DNA of 46,073 nucleotides from a virus: positions 1 through 46,073 of IMG/VR virus record IMGVR_UViG_3300027759_000013; one strand, 5' to 3'. The position numbers were made by a program, and so were the translations under genes. Shown here in pieces: positions 5,396 to 46,073 of the stretch (position 1 is the stretch's first letter; each line of letters opens with the position of its first letter). Under the pieces are notes generated by a model. That model was not told the origin of the DNA. It worked only from the letters and a program-made list of their open reading frames with translations, and made no database searches.

Positions 5396-5753
5396 AGCTA
5401 TTGAAAAAGCTTGGGATAGTTATAAAGACTATTGGGAAGATACTAAAGAAGAATTCTTAAAACAATTTACAGGGTTTATCATTTACCCTATTAAAACTAT
5501 AAATGGTGTTATAGGTTGTGTTGCAGTAAGAGATAATGAAATTCACATATTTGCTACAGATAAATTTAATCTTAGAAAATATGTTAAAGCTATTTTAGTT
5601 CCGTTGTTAAACGAACATAAAGAAGTTATTTCTACTGTTCATTCTAATAATCTAAATGCTTTAAAGTTTGTAACTAGATTGGGATTTAAACCATACAATC
5701 AAATTAATAATAAAATAAATATAAGGATTACACAAGATGGGCTTTGTTGCTGA
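5364..5753 (+). CDS. GNAT-like acetyltransferase or internal virion protein, about 129 aa
   Basis: The open frame extends upstream to 5268 inside the gp10-like gene. I prefer the GTG at 5364, which limits the overlap to 32 bases and gives MKWTLTQEQTK.... The C-terminal half has a GNAT-like pattern: IYPIK...GVIGCVAVRDNEIHIFATDKF, then HSNNLNALKFVTRLGFKPYN, the usual acetyl-CoA fold ending. The function is unclear; in T7-like phages a GNAT-like protein sits at this place among virion proteins. There is no good Shine-Dalgarno sequence, so the start is uncertain. Confidence 0.6.
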   Translation: MKWTLTQEQTKAIEKAWDSYKDYWEDTKEEFLKQFTGFIIYPIKTINGVIGCVAVRDNEIHIFATDKFNLRKYVKAILVPLLNEHKEVISTVHSNNLNALKFVTRLGFKPYNQINNKINIRITQDGLCC

Positions 5754-6693
5754 TATTGTTGGAGGTGTAGCCGATGCAGTTGGTTCTGTAGTCGGTGGCG
5801 TTGTTGACGCTGTAGGAAGTGTAGCCGATGCTTTGGGACCTATAGGAACTATAGCTGCTGCTTACTTTGGTATGCCTTACCTTGCTCCTTCTGGGTTTGC
5901 TGCACTTTCAGCTCCTAGTATATTAGGAGGAGGAATGACAGGGGCAGGTATGTTAACCTCTGGCACTTTAGCTAGTGGTATTGGAGGCTCATTACTATCT
6001 ACTGCAGGAGGTTTAGGAGTATCTAGTGCCTTTAGTGGAGCTAATTCTTTTATTAATGGTCTTGGTGGTTTTACTTCATCTGTACCTAATGCAAGTTCTT
6101 CTTTTGGTAGTATTGCAAACTCACTTAGTAATTTAGGTAATACAATTACAACAGGTGAATCTGGTGGTATTCCTACTAGTAATGGTGGTATTGGTGGTCT
6201 TAGTAAATATACTAATCTTATTAAAAGTGGTATGAGTATTTATGATGCCTTTAATAATACAAGTACAGGACAAACACCTCAAGCAGCTCAAGCTAATGCA
6301 GATCCTTATGCTAAATATAGAGAGGATGCTGCTACTCAATTAAATCAATTAATGAACGATCCTAGTAGGGTTTATGGTATGCCAGGTTATAACTTTGCTC
6401 AAGAAGAACAAGCTAAAGCTATTCAAAGACAAGCATCCGCTTCAGGTCAATCTATTTCAGGTAATACATTAGCATCATTACAAAAACAAAGTGCTAACGT
6501 AGCACAAGACTGGTTTAATAATTATGTAAATCAATTATCTGCACAATCAGGAGCAAATCAAGCTCCAGCTGTAGGTCAAACTGCTTATGCAAATGCAGCT
6601 AACATGCAATCATTAGCAGCAAAGAATAAAAAGGACCAACAATTAGAAGCAGTTCTTGGTTTAGGTGGTGCTCTTGGTGGATTTTTTGGATAA
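5737..6693 (+). CDS. DNA ejection / internal virion protein, Gly-Ala rich
   Basis: The N-terminal 60 residues of this 318-aa protein repeat VADAVGSVVGGVVDAVGSVA, a hydrophobic amphipathic stretch suited to membrane insertion. The middle is Ser/Gly-rich. The C-terminal half is helical (DPYAKYREDAATQLNQLM, GYNFAQEEQAKAIQRQA) and ends LGLGGALGGFFG. It resembles small ejection proteins such as P22 gp7 in layout, and its order just before two larger internal proteins supports that. Transfer into the host envelope with DNA is inferred. Confidence 0.65.
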   Translation: MGFVADIVGGVADAVGSVVGGVVDAVGSVADALGPIGTIAAAYFGMPYLAPSGFAALSAPSILGGGMTGAGMLTSGTLASGIGGSLLSTAGGLGVSSAFSGANSFINGLGGFTSSVPNASSSFGSIANSLSNLGNTITTGESGGIPTSNGGIGGLSKYTNLIKSGMSIYDAFNNTSTGQTPQAAQANADPYAKYREDAATQLNQLMNDPSRVYGMPGYNFAQEEQAKAIQRQASASGQSISGNTLASLQKQSANVAQDWFNNYVNQLSAQSGANQAPAVGQTAYANAANMQSLAAKNKKDQQLEAVLGLGGALGGFFG

Positions 6694-40161: not shown

Positions 40162-40313
40162 TTACTTCTGATGCTAAAGTAAAACAAATGGAGATTTCTG
40201 CTATTATTACAAGAGCAGATGGAACTATTGAAAATCTTGGAACAATTCAATATTGGCACAAGAACCCTTTTAAACGTATTATATGGAGAATTAAAAAATG
40301 GCTACACTATTAG
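40158..40313 (+). CDS. Conserved small phage protein, 51 aa
   Basis: The start overlaps the Dps-like stop as ATGA. It reads MITSDAKVKQMEISAIITRA, then GTIENLGTIQYWHKNPFKRI. 'ITRADGT.E.LG.I.Y.HKNP.KR' is a widespread phage pattern. The end is basic and aromatic (IWRIKKWLHY) and overlaps the next gene by 16 bases. Function unknown. Confidence 0.7.
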   Translation: MITSDAKVKQMEISAIITRADGTIENLGTIQYWHKNPFKRIIWRIKKWLHY

Positions 40314-40666
40314 TCAATACTGGTAAGGCAATTGTAACAAATTACCTTGCTGGCGGTGCTGCAACACAACCTAAATATGTAGGTTGGGGTACAGGTGCAG
40401 GTACTACTGCTGCAACTGACACAACTTTATTTACTGAAGTTGGTACTAGAACTTCTGGTACAACTACACAACAAACAACATCAACAACAAATGATACTTA
40501 TCAAGTTATTGGTACAGTAACAGCTGGTTCTAGTTTAACTATTACTAATGCTGGTTTATTTGATGCTTTATCATCAGGTAACTTGTTTGTTAAAGGTGAC
40601 TTCACTGGAGTTGCTTTAACTTCTGGTGACAGTATTCAGTTCACTTTTAAAACGCAATTTAGTTAA
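40298..40666 (+). CDS. Beta-rich structural protein, 122 aa
   Basis: It starts MATLLVNTGKAIVTNYLAGG and has PKYVGWGTGAGTTAATDT. The body is Thr-rich (TSGTTTQQTTSTTNDTYQVI) and ends DSIQFTFKTQFS. 'vG.GtGttaaa.tdt.L..E' proteins are common in phage tail-fibre regions. GGAG lies 10 bases before the start. Probably a fibre or vertex protein. Confidence 0.65.
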   Translation: MATLLVNTGKAIVTNYLAGGAATQPKYVGWGTGAGTTAATDTTLFTEVGTRTSGTTTQQTTSTTNDTYQVIGTVTAGSSLTITNAGLFDALSSGNLFVKGDFTGVALTSGDSIQFTFKTQFS

Positions 40667-40687: not shown

Positions 40688-41650
40688 GTGGCTCTTAATC
40701 AATCTGCAGTTAATGTAGAGGTAGTCAATGGAAGTGCTGGTGGGGCTGTTTTCACTAAGGCACTTTCTGTTGTTACCTCTTCTACAGCTTCCTTCTTAAG
40801 AGGTATTGGGGCATTAAAAACTATTACAAGTACAAGTTCTGTACTTATAACACAGGCCTTTACCTATGTTAAATCTTTACTAGCTTCAAGTACATCTACG
40901 GTATCTATTGTAAGAGCTTTTGCTAAGATTATTACTTTAATAAATGTTTTATCAACAGCTACTATAAACTTAGCTATTACATTTAGTAAAATAATTTCTG
41001 CTTCTGTATTTAGTACAGTTACTTTAGTTAGACAATTAGGTAAACAAATAACTTCTTCTATAGTATCTTCAATAGTTACTATAGCACAACAATTAAGTTA
41101 TTTAAAGACTTTATCTGTTACAAGTACCGTTATTCCTATTTTACAACGTTACTTTAGTAAGATTATTTTAGAAGTAGAAGTTGTTTCAGCTACTATTTTA
41201 ACAGCTGTTAATAGACTTATTACTTTACTAGCTTATTCTTCTAGTTCTATAAGTATTACTAAAGCTATAACTAAACCGTTAACTTTAGTAGTTTCTACAG
41301 TTACTACTACTTTAACTAAAACTTTAGCTTTACTTAAAACTTTAACAGTATCTGTAAGTTCTTTAGTAACCATAGCTGTAGCTAGATTTTATTTTAGAAC
41401 TTTATCTGTAGTAGCTACAGTAACAGCTATAGTCAATAAATTGTTAAATAACTTATTGACAATTTCAGTAAATTGTGGTATTATATTAAGTAAGCTTATT
41501 AATATAAGTATTACTGCAGTATCTACAATAATTCAAGTACTTTTAGTAAACTATGTTTCGTTTATTAATTACCCTGTAAGTAGATTTATGTATGCTGCTC
41601 AGAAATTTAGAACAGTTTCTGCAGCTAAACTTCGTAAGATATTTTATTAA
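40688..41650 (+). CDS. Tandem-repeat protein, about 14 repeats of 18-20 residues
   Basis: The 320-aa product (GTG start) is built from repeats like LSYLKTLSVTSTVIPILQR and ITKPLTLVVSTVTTTLTKT. The shared plan is an aromatic or Leu, x, Lys, x, Leu, then a Ser/Thr/Val strand, then a basic residue. Fourteen units can be cut between about residues 22 and 285. The regular hydrophobic spacing suggests a beta-solenoid rod. The C-terminus is basic (KFRTVSAAKLRKIFY). A fibre or spike shaft is likely from place; the family is not recognised. Confidence 0.7.
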   Translation: MALNQSAVNVEVVNGSAGGAVFTKALSVVTSSTASFLRGIGALKTITSTSSVLITQAFTYVKSLLASSTSTVSIVRAFAKIITLINVLSTATINLAITFSKIISASVFSTVTLVRQLGKQITSSIVSSIVTIAQQLSYLKTLSVTSTVIPILQRYFSKIILEVEVVSATILTAVNRLITLLAYSSSSISITKAITKPLTLVVSTVTTTLTKTLALLKTLTVSVSSLVTIAVARFYFRTLSVVATVTAIVNKLLNNLLTISVNCGIILSKLINISITAVSTIIQVLLVNYVSFINYPVSRFMYAAQKFRTVSAAKLRKIFY

Positions 41651-41665
41651 TAAGGACTTACTCAT

Positions 41666-41977
41666 ATGAGTGCATCATTCTCATACAAAATTACTACAGA
41701 GAACGAGCAATTTACCTTTGACTTTTCAACAGTCATGTCTACTGGAGAAACAATATCTTCAGCTACTAGTGCAGTTGAAGTTGTATCAGGCACTGATCCT
41801 AGTCCTAGTAGTATCTTAGTAGGTACTCCTGTAGCAAGTGGTCAACAGGTTGCTCAACGTATTTATAATGGTTTAGATGGTGTTATCTATCGTATTGAAA
41901 TAACAATAATAACATCTTTAGCAAATACTTACTCTCTTGTAGCAGACCTTCCAGTCTTATCTCCTCTTAACGTATAG
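41666..41977 (+). CDS. Ig-like structural protein, 103 aa
   Basis: It is beta-rich with TGETISSATSAVEVVSGTDP, SPSSILVGTP and GVIYRIEITIITSLANTYSL. 'SGtDpspsail.g......v.Q.v..G..G..Yri..t..ts.g..l.l' is a frequent phage head or tail pattern. A role as a fibre-attachment or decoration domain is inferred. Confidence 0.65.
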   Translation: MSASFSYKITTENEQFTFDFSTVMSTGETISSATSAVEVVSGTDPSPSSILVGTPVASGQQVAQRIYNGLDGVIYRIEITIITSLANTYSLVADLPVLSPLNV

Positions 41978-41986
41978 GAGATTCCT

Positions 41987-42403
41987 TTGAGTTATACCCC
42001 TAGATATGACAATGGAGATTGGATAGCAGATTGTGATGTCTGTGGTCGTAAGTATAAGGCTAGTGCTTTAAGTCAACGTTGGGATGGTCTAATGTGTTGT
42101 GACGATGACTGGGAAATCCGTCAACCACAAGACTTTGTTAGAGGTGTACCAGATACTCAGATAGCACCTTGGTTGAGACCAGAACCTCCAGACTACTTTA
42201 TACCTATAGCATTAACTGCTCCAACAGCTAATTTTAATGTTTCTAGTAACTGTAGTTTAACAGTTCAATATATACAAGGTCCAGCTCAACAAAATGCTAC
42301 AAGTATAGTTACAGCAATACTAAACTGGGTAAGAAGGTTCCCTATTACAGCAGGGGCTAGAGAAATAAATGGTTCATCAATTAATACAAACTCAATAAAT
42401 TAA
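41987..42403 (+). CDS. Zinc-binding structural protein, 138 aa
   Basis: It starts at TTG with AGGAG 6 bases upstream. CDVCGRKYKASALSQRWDGL and MCCDDDWE form a zinc ribbon at residues about 16-45. 'C..CGrkykas.L..rWdGL.vC.dDwe.RhPqdf' is a well-known phage pattern. A proline-rich linker (PWLRPEPPDYFIP) and a beta C-terminus follow. It is conserved in fibre regions; the exact role is unknown. Confidence 0.75.
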   Translation: MSYTPRYDNGDWIADCDVCGRKYKASALSQRWDGLMCCDDDWEIRQPQDFVRGVPDTQIAPWLRPEPPDYFIPIALTAPTANFNVSSNCSLTVQYIQGPAQQNATSIVTAILNWVRRFPITAGAREINGSSINTNSIN

Positions 42404-42414
42404 TAGGATAGTCT

Positions 42415-42897
42415 ATGTCATCTAATTATCAATTTACCAATAATGCCGCCTCTACATTAGCGTCTAGTATCCTTATAGGTGCTACCTCGTTAACTGTAGC
42501 TGCTTCTACTGGTGCATTATTTCCTACCTTAACAGGGTCTAATTTCTTTTATTGTACTTTACAAAATACAGCTGGTACTACAGTTGAAATTGTTAAAGTA
42601 ACAGCAAGAAGTACAGATACATTTACTATTGTAAGAGCTCAAGAAGGTACATCAGCTTCAGCATTTGCATCTGGTGATAAAGTAGAACTAAGACTTACAG
42701 CTGGTGAAATAAATCAGTTATTTGCTGGTGCTACTGCAGGAGCTGGTACTGATCAAGTATTCCATGAAAATGCTTTAATAGTTACAGCAAACTATACATT
42801 AACAACTAGTCGCAATGCTATGAGTGTCGGTCCTATTACGGTTAACTCAGGTGTAGCTGTTACTATCCCTAGCGGTGCTAGATGGGTAGTCCTTTAG
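42415..42897 (+). CDS. Tail fibre / baseplate-type protein, 160 aa
   Basis: It has SSILIGATSLTVAASTGALFP, then VEIVKVTARSTDTFTIVRAQ, EGTSASAFASGDKVELRLTA and GEINQLF. This is the common 'E.v.Vtar.gdt.tv.Raqegt.A.afaaGd.velRlTa..ln' domain of phage fibres. The last 45 residues (beta strands, PSGARWVVL) look like a trimeric cap. Confidence 0.75.
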   Translation: MSSNYQFTNNAASTLASSILIGATSLTVAASTGALFPTLTGSNFFYCTLQNTAGTTVEIVKVTARSTDTFTIVRAQEGTSASAFASGDKVELRLTAGEINQLFAGATAGAGTDQVFHENALIVTANYTLTTSRNAMSVGPITVNSGVAVTIPSGARWVVL

Positions 42898-42906
42898 GAG
42901 AAATAA

Positions 42907-44091
42907 ATGGCATCAACCATAAACGCAAGTACAAGTCCAGCAGCCATAGTCCAAACGGCTGACGGCACAGCTAATTTAAGTTTACAGAGTAATGGCACAA
43001 CAATAGCAGCTATTACATCTACAGGAATTGCAGTTACTGGTGCTGTTTCAGCTACAACTGATTCAACATTTAACTCTACAGGAGCTTTAACTGTTTCATC
43101 TGGTACTACTGCACAAAGACCAACAGCAGCAGCGGGTATGATAAGATATAATACTACTCTTAGTTCTTTTGAATATTCTAATGGTAGTGTTTGGTATTCT
43201 TCAACTGCTCTTTATGGTACACAAAAAGGTATCATGATTGGTGGTGCTAATGCTAGTACTATTTTTGGTCTTAGTAATTTAGTTTCTAGTTCTGGTGTAA
43301 TAGCTACAGATACTACAGCTGTTGCAACTGGCAGAGTATTAGGAGCAGCTGCTAGTTATGGTAGTGATAAAGCTATATTTGGTTTTGGTTCTTTAACTTC
43401 AGGTGCTGATACAGCAATAACAAACCTTATATCTAACACAGGTGTGGTAGCTTCTGATACAACAGGCGTAGGAACAATAAGATCTGGACTTGCTGCTTGT
43501 GGATATGGTAATGATAAAGCTATATTTGGGTTTGGATCGCCAACTACAGCTGTAACTAATTTGGTATCTAACACAGGAGTTGTTAGTAGTGATGTTACAG
43601 GCGTAGGAACAGCAAGAGCTTATCCTGGTGCTGCTACTTATGGTGGAGATAAAGGTATATTTATGTTTGGTACTACTGGAAGTTATGTATCTACATCTAA
43701 TCTTGTTTCTAATACTGGAGTTGTAGCAACAGATACTACTAACCCTGCTGGAGTAACTATTAAAGGTTATGGAGGAGCAGCTCAATTTGGTGGCGGTCAA
43801 GTAATTTATGCGTTTGGTTATAATTCTGCTAGTGCTTTTACTAGTATAAGTAACTTAGTATCTACTACAGGGGTGATAGCTTCTGATACTACTGGAGTAG
43901 GAACAGCAAGAAGGAACCCAGGAAATTCTTCTTATGGAAGTGATAAAGCTATATTTGCATATGGATATAATGGAAGTTATTTATCTATGTCTAATTTAGT
44001 ATCTAATACAGGGGTAGTAGCAACAGACACAACTGGTGTAGGTACAGCAAGATATGGTGTTACTGGTGCTGGATATTCATTAACTGCATAG
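42907..44091 (+). CDS. Tail fibre with six-repeat, propeller-like receptor domain
   Basis: The N-terminal 100 residues of this 394-aa protein are a fibre shaft (ITSTGIAVTGAVSATTDSTF, AQRPTAAAGMIRYNTTLSSF). Six repeats of 45-50 residues follow. Each has YGSDKAIFGFG, then SNLVSNTGVVATDTTGVGTAR, in a Kelch-like pattern; the final YSLTA probably closes the ring. Six blades would make a beta-propeller suited to receptor binding. It is followed by chaperone-like genes. Confidence 0.75.
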   Translation: MASTINASTSPAAIVQTADGTANLSLQSNGTTIAAITSTGIAVTGAVSATTDSTFNSTGALTVSSGTTAQRPTAAAGMIRYNTTLSSFEYSNGSVWYSSTALYGTQKGIMIGGANASTIFGLSNLVSSSGVIATDTTAVATGRVLGAAASYGSDKAIFGFGSLTSGADTAITNLISNTGVVASDTTGVGTIRSGLAACGYGNDKAIFGFGSPTTAVTNLVSNTGVVSSDVTGVGTARAYPGAATYGGDKGIFMFGTTGSYVSTSNLVSNTGVVATDTTNPAGVTIKGYGGAAQFGGGQVIYAFGYNSASAFTSISNLVSTTGVIASDTTGVGTARRNPGNSSYGSDKAIFAYGYNGSYLSMSNLVSNTGVVATDTTGVGTARYGVTGAGYSLTA

Positions 44092-45761: not shown

Positions 45762-46073
45762 GTGTAATTATTAATGGGACGGATGGGGTCACCTTTAACG
45801 ACACCTCTCTACAAGGAGCTGCTGCGTCACCTTATGTGCTAAAGAACCGTATTATAAATGGTGATATGAGGATAGACCAGAGAAATGCTGGTGCTGCTGT
45901 GACTGCAGCTAATGCATTTCCTGTTGATAGATGGTTAATTTATGGTACTCAAGCATCTAAATTTACAGCACAACAAAATGCTGGTTCAGTTACTCCGCCA
46001 AGTGGCTATACAAATTATTTAGGAATTACATCATCTTCTGCATATACTGTTTTATCTGGTGATTTTTTTAGTG
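45758..46073 (+). CDS. Tail fibre / receptor-binding protein, 5' part (continues at 100-905)
   Basis: The gene starts with ATG at 45758 (overlap ATGA, with AGGAG about 11 bases before it) and runs off the window end. The product begins MSVIINGTDGVTFNDTSLQG and reads into KNRIINGDMRIDQRNAG. The reading frame continues without change at base 100, because 45975-46073 equals 1-99. See the entry for 1-905 for the rest. Confidence 0.88.
   Translation, partial: MSVIINGTDGVTFNDTSLQGAAASPYVLKNRIINGDMRIDQRNAGAAVTAANAFPVDRWLIYGTQASKFTAQQNAGSVTPPSGYTNYLGITSSSAYTVLSGDFFS
45975..46073. repeat. 99-bp direct terminal repeat, right copy
   Basis: Identical to bases 1-99. It should be removed from one end when the genome is treated as a circle. 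Confidence 0.95.

Follow-up and report, generated by a model that had tools for sequence, protein, structure and literature searches.

In the Ralstonia podophage GP4, each fiber I reportedly consists of five gp80 dimers joined by an elongated rope protein. Bead-chain fibres have also been described in A-1(L), where five neck fibres sit on a 15-mer near the neck; in the available part of that report, this gp82-gp81-gp80 neck fibre differs in that its beads are gp81 trimers arranged head to tail, and a rope is not mentioned (PMC10966104). The available part of a further paper describes a 15:12 mismatch as 'like in the podophage GP4' (PMC10925440). In LSH1, according to the accessible part of the source, gp34-36 always co-occur and were found in a virion mass-spectrometry survey; gp35 matches 8JOU_g, the GP4 fibril protein, and is a dimer in the model; gp36 is an Ig-like protein; and gp34 includes a part that resisted modelling and that, according to the authors, may be a repetitive motif or linker (PMC13243795). 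Additionally, gp53 and gp55 of JC1, by position the bead and the adaptor, are listed as virion proteins, and gp54, by position the rope, appears nowhere in the available text nor in the rows of Table 6 listed there, which run to gp47 (PMC9144972).

We analysed a window of 46,073 nucleotides, which is the whole of IMG/VR virus record IMGVR_UViG_3300027759_000013 (record length 46,073 bases). It carries a direct terminal repeat of 99 bases (1-99 and 45975-46073) and therefore probably represents a complete genome. PHROG and Pfam models recognised a terminase, an SU10-type portal, an Ad3-like adaptor and an Hc3-like head closure protein, together with a weak DNA-ejection match elsewhere in the window. 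As for GP4 fiber I (PDB 8JOU), the Gp80 and Gp77 families are both represented within a single gene block of the window, in which a long chain would be expected to join the Gp80 beads. The proposed bead is a 122-aa protein of the Gp80 family (PF23140, podophage GP4 fiber I protein; 40298-40666, plus strand), which passed the Pfam cut-off of 27 bits (31 bits, E 3.6e-07), matched phrog_5417 (E 2.8e-08) and gave a weak match to PDB 8jou_a (E 0.1; E 0.044 with the bead profile). The proposed anchor is a 103-aa protein of the Gp77 family (PF23148, GP4 fiber-tail adaptor; 41666-41977, plus strand), which also passed its cut-off of 27 (30.7 bits, E 4.7e-07) and whose family profile matched PDB 8jou_D (E 0.0019). 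Between these two genes, on the same strand, lies the gene for the repeat protein (40688-41650; 320 aa, GTG start). The Gp77 gene is directly followed by that of a zinc-ribbon-like protein (41987-42403, plus strand; assigned by eye, with a Pfam E of only 0.18), and two tail-fibre-type genes on the plus strand (42415-42897 and 42907-44091) continue the block, with matches to phrog_8469, a tail fiber protein (E 3.4e-30), and to phrog_25721, of unknown function (E 8.7e-07). The protein encoded at 42907-44091 has repeats of its own, with a period of roughly 47-49 residues (z 6.2 at lag 47 and 5.9 at lag 49). The location of the repeat gene in a tail-fibre gene block agrees with the fibre-type role suggested in a preliminary description of this DNA. 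Taken as a whole, our analysis favours a role for the repeat protein as rope or core strand in a bead-chain fibre resembling GP4 fiber I, in a helical version.

The preliminary description had also proposed about 14 imperfect repeats of 18-20 residues in this protein, each with a hydrophobic or aromatic start, a Lys, a Leu, a Ser/Thr/Val strand and a basic end. Repeat detection by autocorrelation on residue similarity (1000 shuffles) bore this out, with peaks at lag 39 (z 4.7) and lag 18 (z 4.5) against a 95% limit of z 3.2 for the maximum across 60 lags, and with a z of 4.6 (p<=0.001, 1000 shuffles) for the 18-20 lag band; this band was absent (p>0.05) from six of seven control ORFs of the window, the positive one being ORF 5737-6693 (p 0.007). 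A position-specific model scored 13 units of 18-21 residues, and a weak, degenerate 14th was placed by eye; together they form an array at 40763-41557 (plus strand) with helix-type hydropathy. The unit consensus, L-S-V-x-S-T-S-T-V-T-I-V-K-x-I-x-K-L, fits the layout proposed earlier. The array is followed by a basic C-terminal tail (41558-41647, plus strand; from the alignment, by eye) with Arg or Lys every 8-10 residues or so (YPVSRF..QKFR..KLRK). S, T, V, I and L make up 64% of the protein, which has 27 basic and only 3 acidic residues. As the preliminary description had stated, no named family is recognisable: no model in Pfam, PHROGs or NCBIfam names the protein. In addition, tblastn against phage records and a search of the PDB gave no match. 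The start residue is common to the relatives, with GTG or ATG as its codon. A spurious ORF was rejected as an explanation because dN/dS of the repeat gene was 0.21-0.62 in five pairs; the neighbouring genes gave 0-0.45 (Gp80, five pairs) and 0.13-0.27 (Gp77, four pairs).

Relatives were collected by scanning IMG/VR with the repeat protein, the adaptor and the bead, two of the scans being represented by the best 80 of 507 and the best 80 of 125 loci. Among the matches listed, at least 136 loci have the adaptor, at least 150 the bead and at least 124 both; in all 124 records with both, these two genes are on the same strand and a repeat ORF lies between them. As the module genes served to find the loci, 124/124 expresses the constancy of the module and not its frequency; the 124 records count the window twice (W and L001) and include one phage record (L008) as well as pieces of the same contig that overlap one another. 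Some loci have an extra gene between the bead and the repeat gene, or between the repeat gene and the adaptor. The first-picked ORF was wrong in L068, L073, L125 and L145, where a repeat ORF is also present; the set of 84 distinct picked proteins obtained from the 124 records still contains these four wrong picks. In this set, the unit spacings were mostly 18 aa (637 times), 20 aa (224) and 19 aa (58), followed by 39 aa (34), 21 aa (24), 38 aa (18) and rarer values; spacings of 38-41 aa are probably skipped units. The 18-20 band was significant (p<0.01) in 54 of 58 non-redundant relatives; among other ORFs taken from these loci, the figure was 11 of 200. For 55 of the 58, the strongest lag in the range 10-24 was 18 or 20. 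These 58-protein tests omit L008, which was tested separately as MW202796, and the alignment (A4) holds 57 of 59 representatives, L008 and L106 being left out. A profile of 17 relatives found no match in the PDB. When genome contigs were scanned with the Gp80 alignment, the only locus obtained was on a Saccharibacteria-binned contig, probably a phage contig, with genes for Gp80-like, 965-aa, repeat (F-type, see below), Gp77-like and zinc-ribbon-like proteins (L182:418-5783). Our literature search found no description of this protein family.

Hydropathy moments, tested against shuffles on the Kyte-Doolittle and Eisenberg scales, were alpha-helical (z>2) in all 58 representatives and of the beta type (z>2) in none; the window protein itself had an alpha z of 5.9 and a beta z of -1.3. 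Over the 58 proteins, the hydropathy correlation was positive at lags 3, 4, 7, 11, 15 and 18 (lag 18, z 30.5) and negative at lags 2 (z -36.8), 5, 9, 13, 16 and 20 (lag 20, z -10.7), which is the signature of an amphipathic alpha-helix; the strongest combined lags were 18, 36, 56, 74, 4, 38, 131, 22, 149 and 92. An 18-residue unit corresponds to five helical turns of 3.6 residues, and a hydrophobic stripe would thus return to the same side with each unit. A beta-strand reading had first been drawn from the excess of 18 and 20 over 19 and, on average, of even over odd lags (8.2 vs -2.0), and was withdrawn because of the strongly negative lag 2 and the helical moments in 58/58. Structure prediction, which the preliminary description had put forward as a check for a repetitive fold, gave a divided answer. 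AlphaFold2 predicted the repeat protein alone (57 alignment rows) as all helix (pLDDT 54, pTM 0.28; best stretch, residues 251-290, pLDDT 74-86), and predicted short strands every 20 residues or so within the repeat part when Gp80 and the first 110 residues of the repeat protein were joined as one read-through chain (101 rows; pLDDT 52, pTM 0.34). These two models conflict; the helical one agrees with the hydropathy, both are of low confidence, and neither offers a reliable fold or a confident contact. The self-standing beta-solenoid shaft, with one unit per rung, that the preliminary description had suggested draws on the period of 18-20 residues and on the strands of the Gp80-repeat model, but the beta moment is missing throughout the 58 proteins on both scales and Foldseek with that model found nothing credible in the PDB (best E 0.08). 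Neither strand periodicity nor a confident solenoid fold was found for the window protein, and we regard such a shaft as highly improbable.

The same helical signal would suit a protein that forms a fibre shaft of its own, a straight alpha-helical coiled-coil oligomer built on 18 residues per five turns and decorated or capped by Gp80; the helical AlphaFold2 model, with its better stretch, and the location in the fibre gene block also speak for it. However, the 20-residue units disrupt the 18/5 phase, as reflected in the negative lag 20, the AlphaFold2 confidence is low overall and the Ser/Thr/Val content is high, which is unusual for coiled coils, and this shaft therefore appears unlikely. 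Helix-type hydropathy, the excess of basic residues and weak PHROG matches to tape-measure families (best E 0.074 for the window protein, 0.026 for L023) could likewise point to a tape-measure-like protein or to one active on membranes during ejection, in either case with amphipathic helices. The window protein has no significant match to a tape-measure family, P22-type head-closure and ejection genes are found elsewhere in the window and the repeat gene keeps a fixed position between two fibre genes; we consider an ejection or tape-measure role very unlikely.

The number of repeats differs between relatives, as the preliminary description had anticipated for strains, and it does so in whole blocks. 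Twenty pairs of at least 60% identity had a single gap of at least 12 residues, and in 14 of these the gap measured 74-79 aa, that is, about four units; the others measured 102 aa (one), 39 aa (one), 18 aa (three) and 17 aa (one), and the pairs share members and are thus not independent. L098 and L103, for example, are 89% identical and differ by one 76-aa insertion. The one 18-aa indel examined sits in the basic tail, and no step around 75 aa is apparent in the total protein lengths (p 0.70). The conservation of unit length, with changes in roughly whole units, argues against a mere tether that stretches from adaptor to adhesin without binding Gp80 bead by bead, and so does the presence of a Gp80 gene in all 124 records, a count for which both genes were required. 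Such a tether would be consistent with the low AlphaFold2 confidence, with the dN/dS range of the repeat gene set against those of Gp80 and Gp77, and with a repeat chemistry that varies among phage groups (see below); we consider it quite unlikely.

A second feature shared with relatives is an N-terminal triple pentad, LNQSAVNVEVVN in the window (40694-40729, plus strand), which we propose as a docking end. The motif occurs within the first 60 residues in 78 of the 84 picked proteins and, among the matches listed, at most 60 residues from the start of the picked ORF in 118 of the 124 records, 102 with an N-type motif (phi-(N/D)-x3, three times) and 16 with an F-type motif (FGxxxF(S/G)xxx(F/Y)(A/G/S)G); proteins with the motif range from 235 to 772 aa. 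The remaining six records also have a repeat ORF, which opens with an MFG variant in four and has a domain in front in L029 and L141. In the repeat protein at L068:7135-8511, several extra triple pentads of the VNGAALNVYALNGYG type are present in the C-terminal part. The zinc-ribbon-like protein of the window ends in a triple pentad as well (INGSSINTNSIN, its last 12 residues, 42365-42400), which makes it a candidate for a second client of the docking site. Pentad patterns were present in 45 of 2614 other frames, 16 of them, by reading, further repeat proteins of this kind and 15 distinct C-termini of the downstream zinc-ribbon-like gene. Where there was room for a downstream motif, none was seen in 58 of 93 N-type records (nor in 14 F-type and 4 unclassified ones), and the pairing of pentad types between the repeat protein and the downstream gene was uninformative, all 35 pairs being N with N. 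Triple pentads such as LNGAALNVYPIN were also seen, about 70 residues before the end, in three proteins some 580-600 aa long, those of BcepMigl (L036:9515-11320, annotated as internal virion protein), Itty13 (L037:10168-11946) and Atu_ph08 (L040:7946-9691), for which we infer a possible head-closure role.

A 72-residue piece of GP4 Gp77 used as query retrieved 64 phage records with an E limit of 0.1 and 74 with one of 0.5, and 12 named phages were chosen from these matches. This distant set comprises Burkholderia, Pseudomonas, mycobacterial, Microcystis and Sphingobium phages and others. Each of the 12 encodes a repeat protein within the module or close to it; it lies between bead and adaptor in eight (BcepMigl, BcepIL02, Itty13, DSL-LC06, Mae-JY04, Lacusarx, PBC5, where it has 143 aa, and Atu_ph08), upstream of Gp77 in Mwe-JY26 and, in Faith1, Vasanti and Madraxi, downstream of it within the block. 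A Gp80 gene above the Pfam cut-off was found in 9 of the 12; Pfam Gp80 was missing from Mwe-JY26 and from the single candidate gene tested in each of Vasanti and Madraxi. Ten of the 12 passed the periodicity threshold, with Itty13 and Atu_ph08 below it; Itty13 and BcepIL02 match the same PHROG (E 1.9e-14 for Itty13). In Atu_ph08, an unannotated 184-aa ORF (L040:5432-5986, plus strand), just under the periodicity threshold and with the GenBank gene on the opposite strand, is a candidate for a missed repeat-protein gene. An alpha moment (z>2) was found in none of 13 distant phages, namely these 12 and Slicko01, and in four of them the beta moment passed this threshold, weakly and on one scale (BcepMigl, BcepIL02, Faith1 and DSL-LC06). 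As these proteins have no helical periodicity, they may not be homologous to that of the window, and the slot in the module seems to be filled by different repeat types. MW202796, which was found via the window adaptor, encodes at this position a repeat protein of 429 aa whose hydropathy is helical (alpha z 9.3).

Among the distant proteins, those of phrog_19041 (BcepIL02 gp56, BcepMigl gp28 and Itty13 gp15) resemble the window protein in their placement between the Gp80 and Gp77 genes, in an N-terminal triple pentad, in repeats of about 20 residues (clear in BcepIL02, z 8.0) and, by eye, in an arginine-rich end. In contrast to the helical window protein, their repeats are Gly-rich and lack helical periodicity, and phrog_19041 was not among the PHROG matches of the window protein up to E 1. 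No chain of 8JOU was matched when the PDB was searched with the window protein, with the profile of its family and with two Bcep22-like repeat proteins; the link to the GP4 rope therefore rests on gene order. The LSH1 module, as far as described in the available part of the source, is also similar, with a Gp80-like bead, a small Ig-like protein and a large protein with a poorly modelled part (PMC13243795). The 1843-aa protein WGH49683 of Slicko01 (L175:11570-17101, minus strand) is probably the homolog of LSH1 gp34 that its authors meant; its last 753 residues are repetitive (lags 40, 20 and 60, with z 13.0, 11.9 and 10.0), its first part has no autocorrelation peak above the limit, and its gene adjoins a Gp80-like gene and a small gene. 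These systems differ from the window in having large payload domains, and Slicko01 yielded no match to Gp77, while its bead, at 16.6 and 18.1 bits, fell short of the Pfam threshold.

Under the favoured reading, as rope or core strand, the chain would form a long amphipathic helix or a thin helical bundle, one end of which, most likely the pentad motif, would dock on the Gp77 ring, close to the top of the tail. Gp80 subunits would ride as beads on the repeating face, so that the number of units could set the number of beads and the reach of the fibre, and the basic C-terminus may hold its far end; certain relatives have an adhesin-like domain, either as part of the repeat protein or in a neighbouring gene. 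The data show the gene order, the repeats, their helical periodicity and the unit-wise variation, and from these we infer bead binding, the docking ends and the ruler function; our confidence in the rope and ruler readings was lowered by the different repeat types of the distant phages. The virion proteins of JC1, which include bead and adaptor by position but, in the text available, not the rope, also speak against the rope reading, as do the named phages in which Pfam Gp80 or significant periodicity was missing. More tentatively, and as a possibility to which we give less weight than even chance, Gp80/Gp77 fibres could constitute a widespread module of short-tailed, long-tailed and contractile phages with a repeat protein as its ruler, in which the helical variant described here, with exactly five turns per unit, would occupy the position taken by a non-helical protein in other phages and keep the pentad dock. 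Blocks of about four units might then tune the reach while the beads stay unchanged, and the pentad could be a docking code shared with the downstream protein and some head-closure-type proteins.

If this is correct, rope-linked bead fibres would be common, with one known structure, that of GP4, said to contain such a fibre. They would be recognisable by gene order and repeats where homology searches fail, the Atu_ph08 candidate being an example, and the gp34-36 module of LSH1 would gain an explanation. Furthermore, a switch between helical and non-helical repeats in one structural slot would become testable, and so would the way in which a virus sets the length of its appendages.
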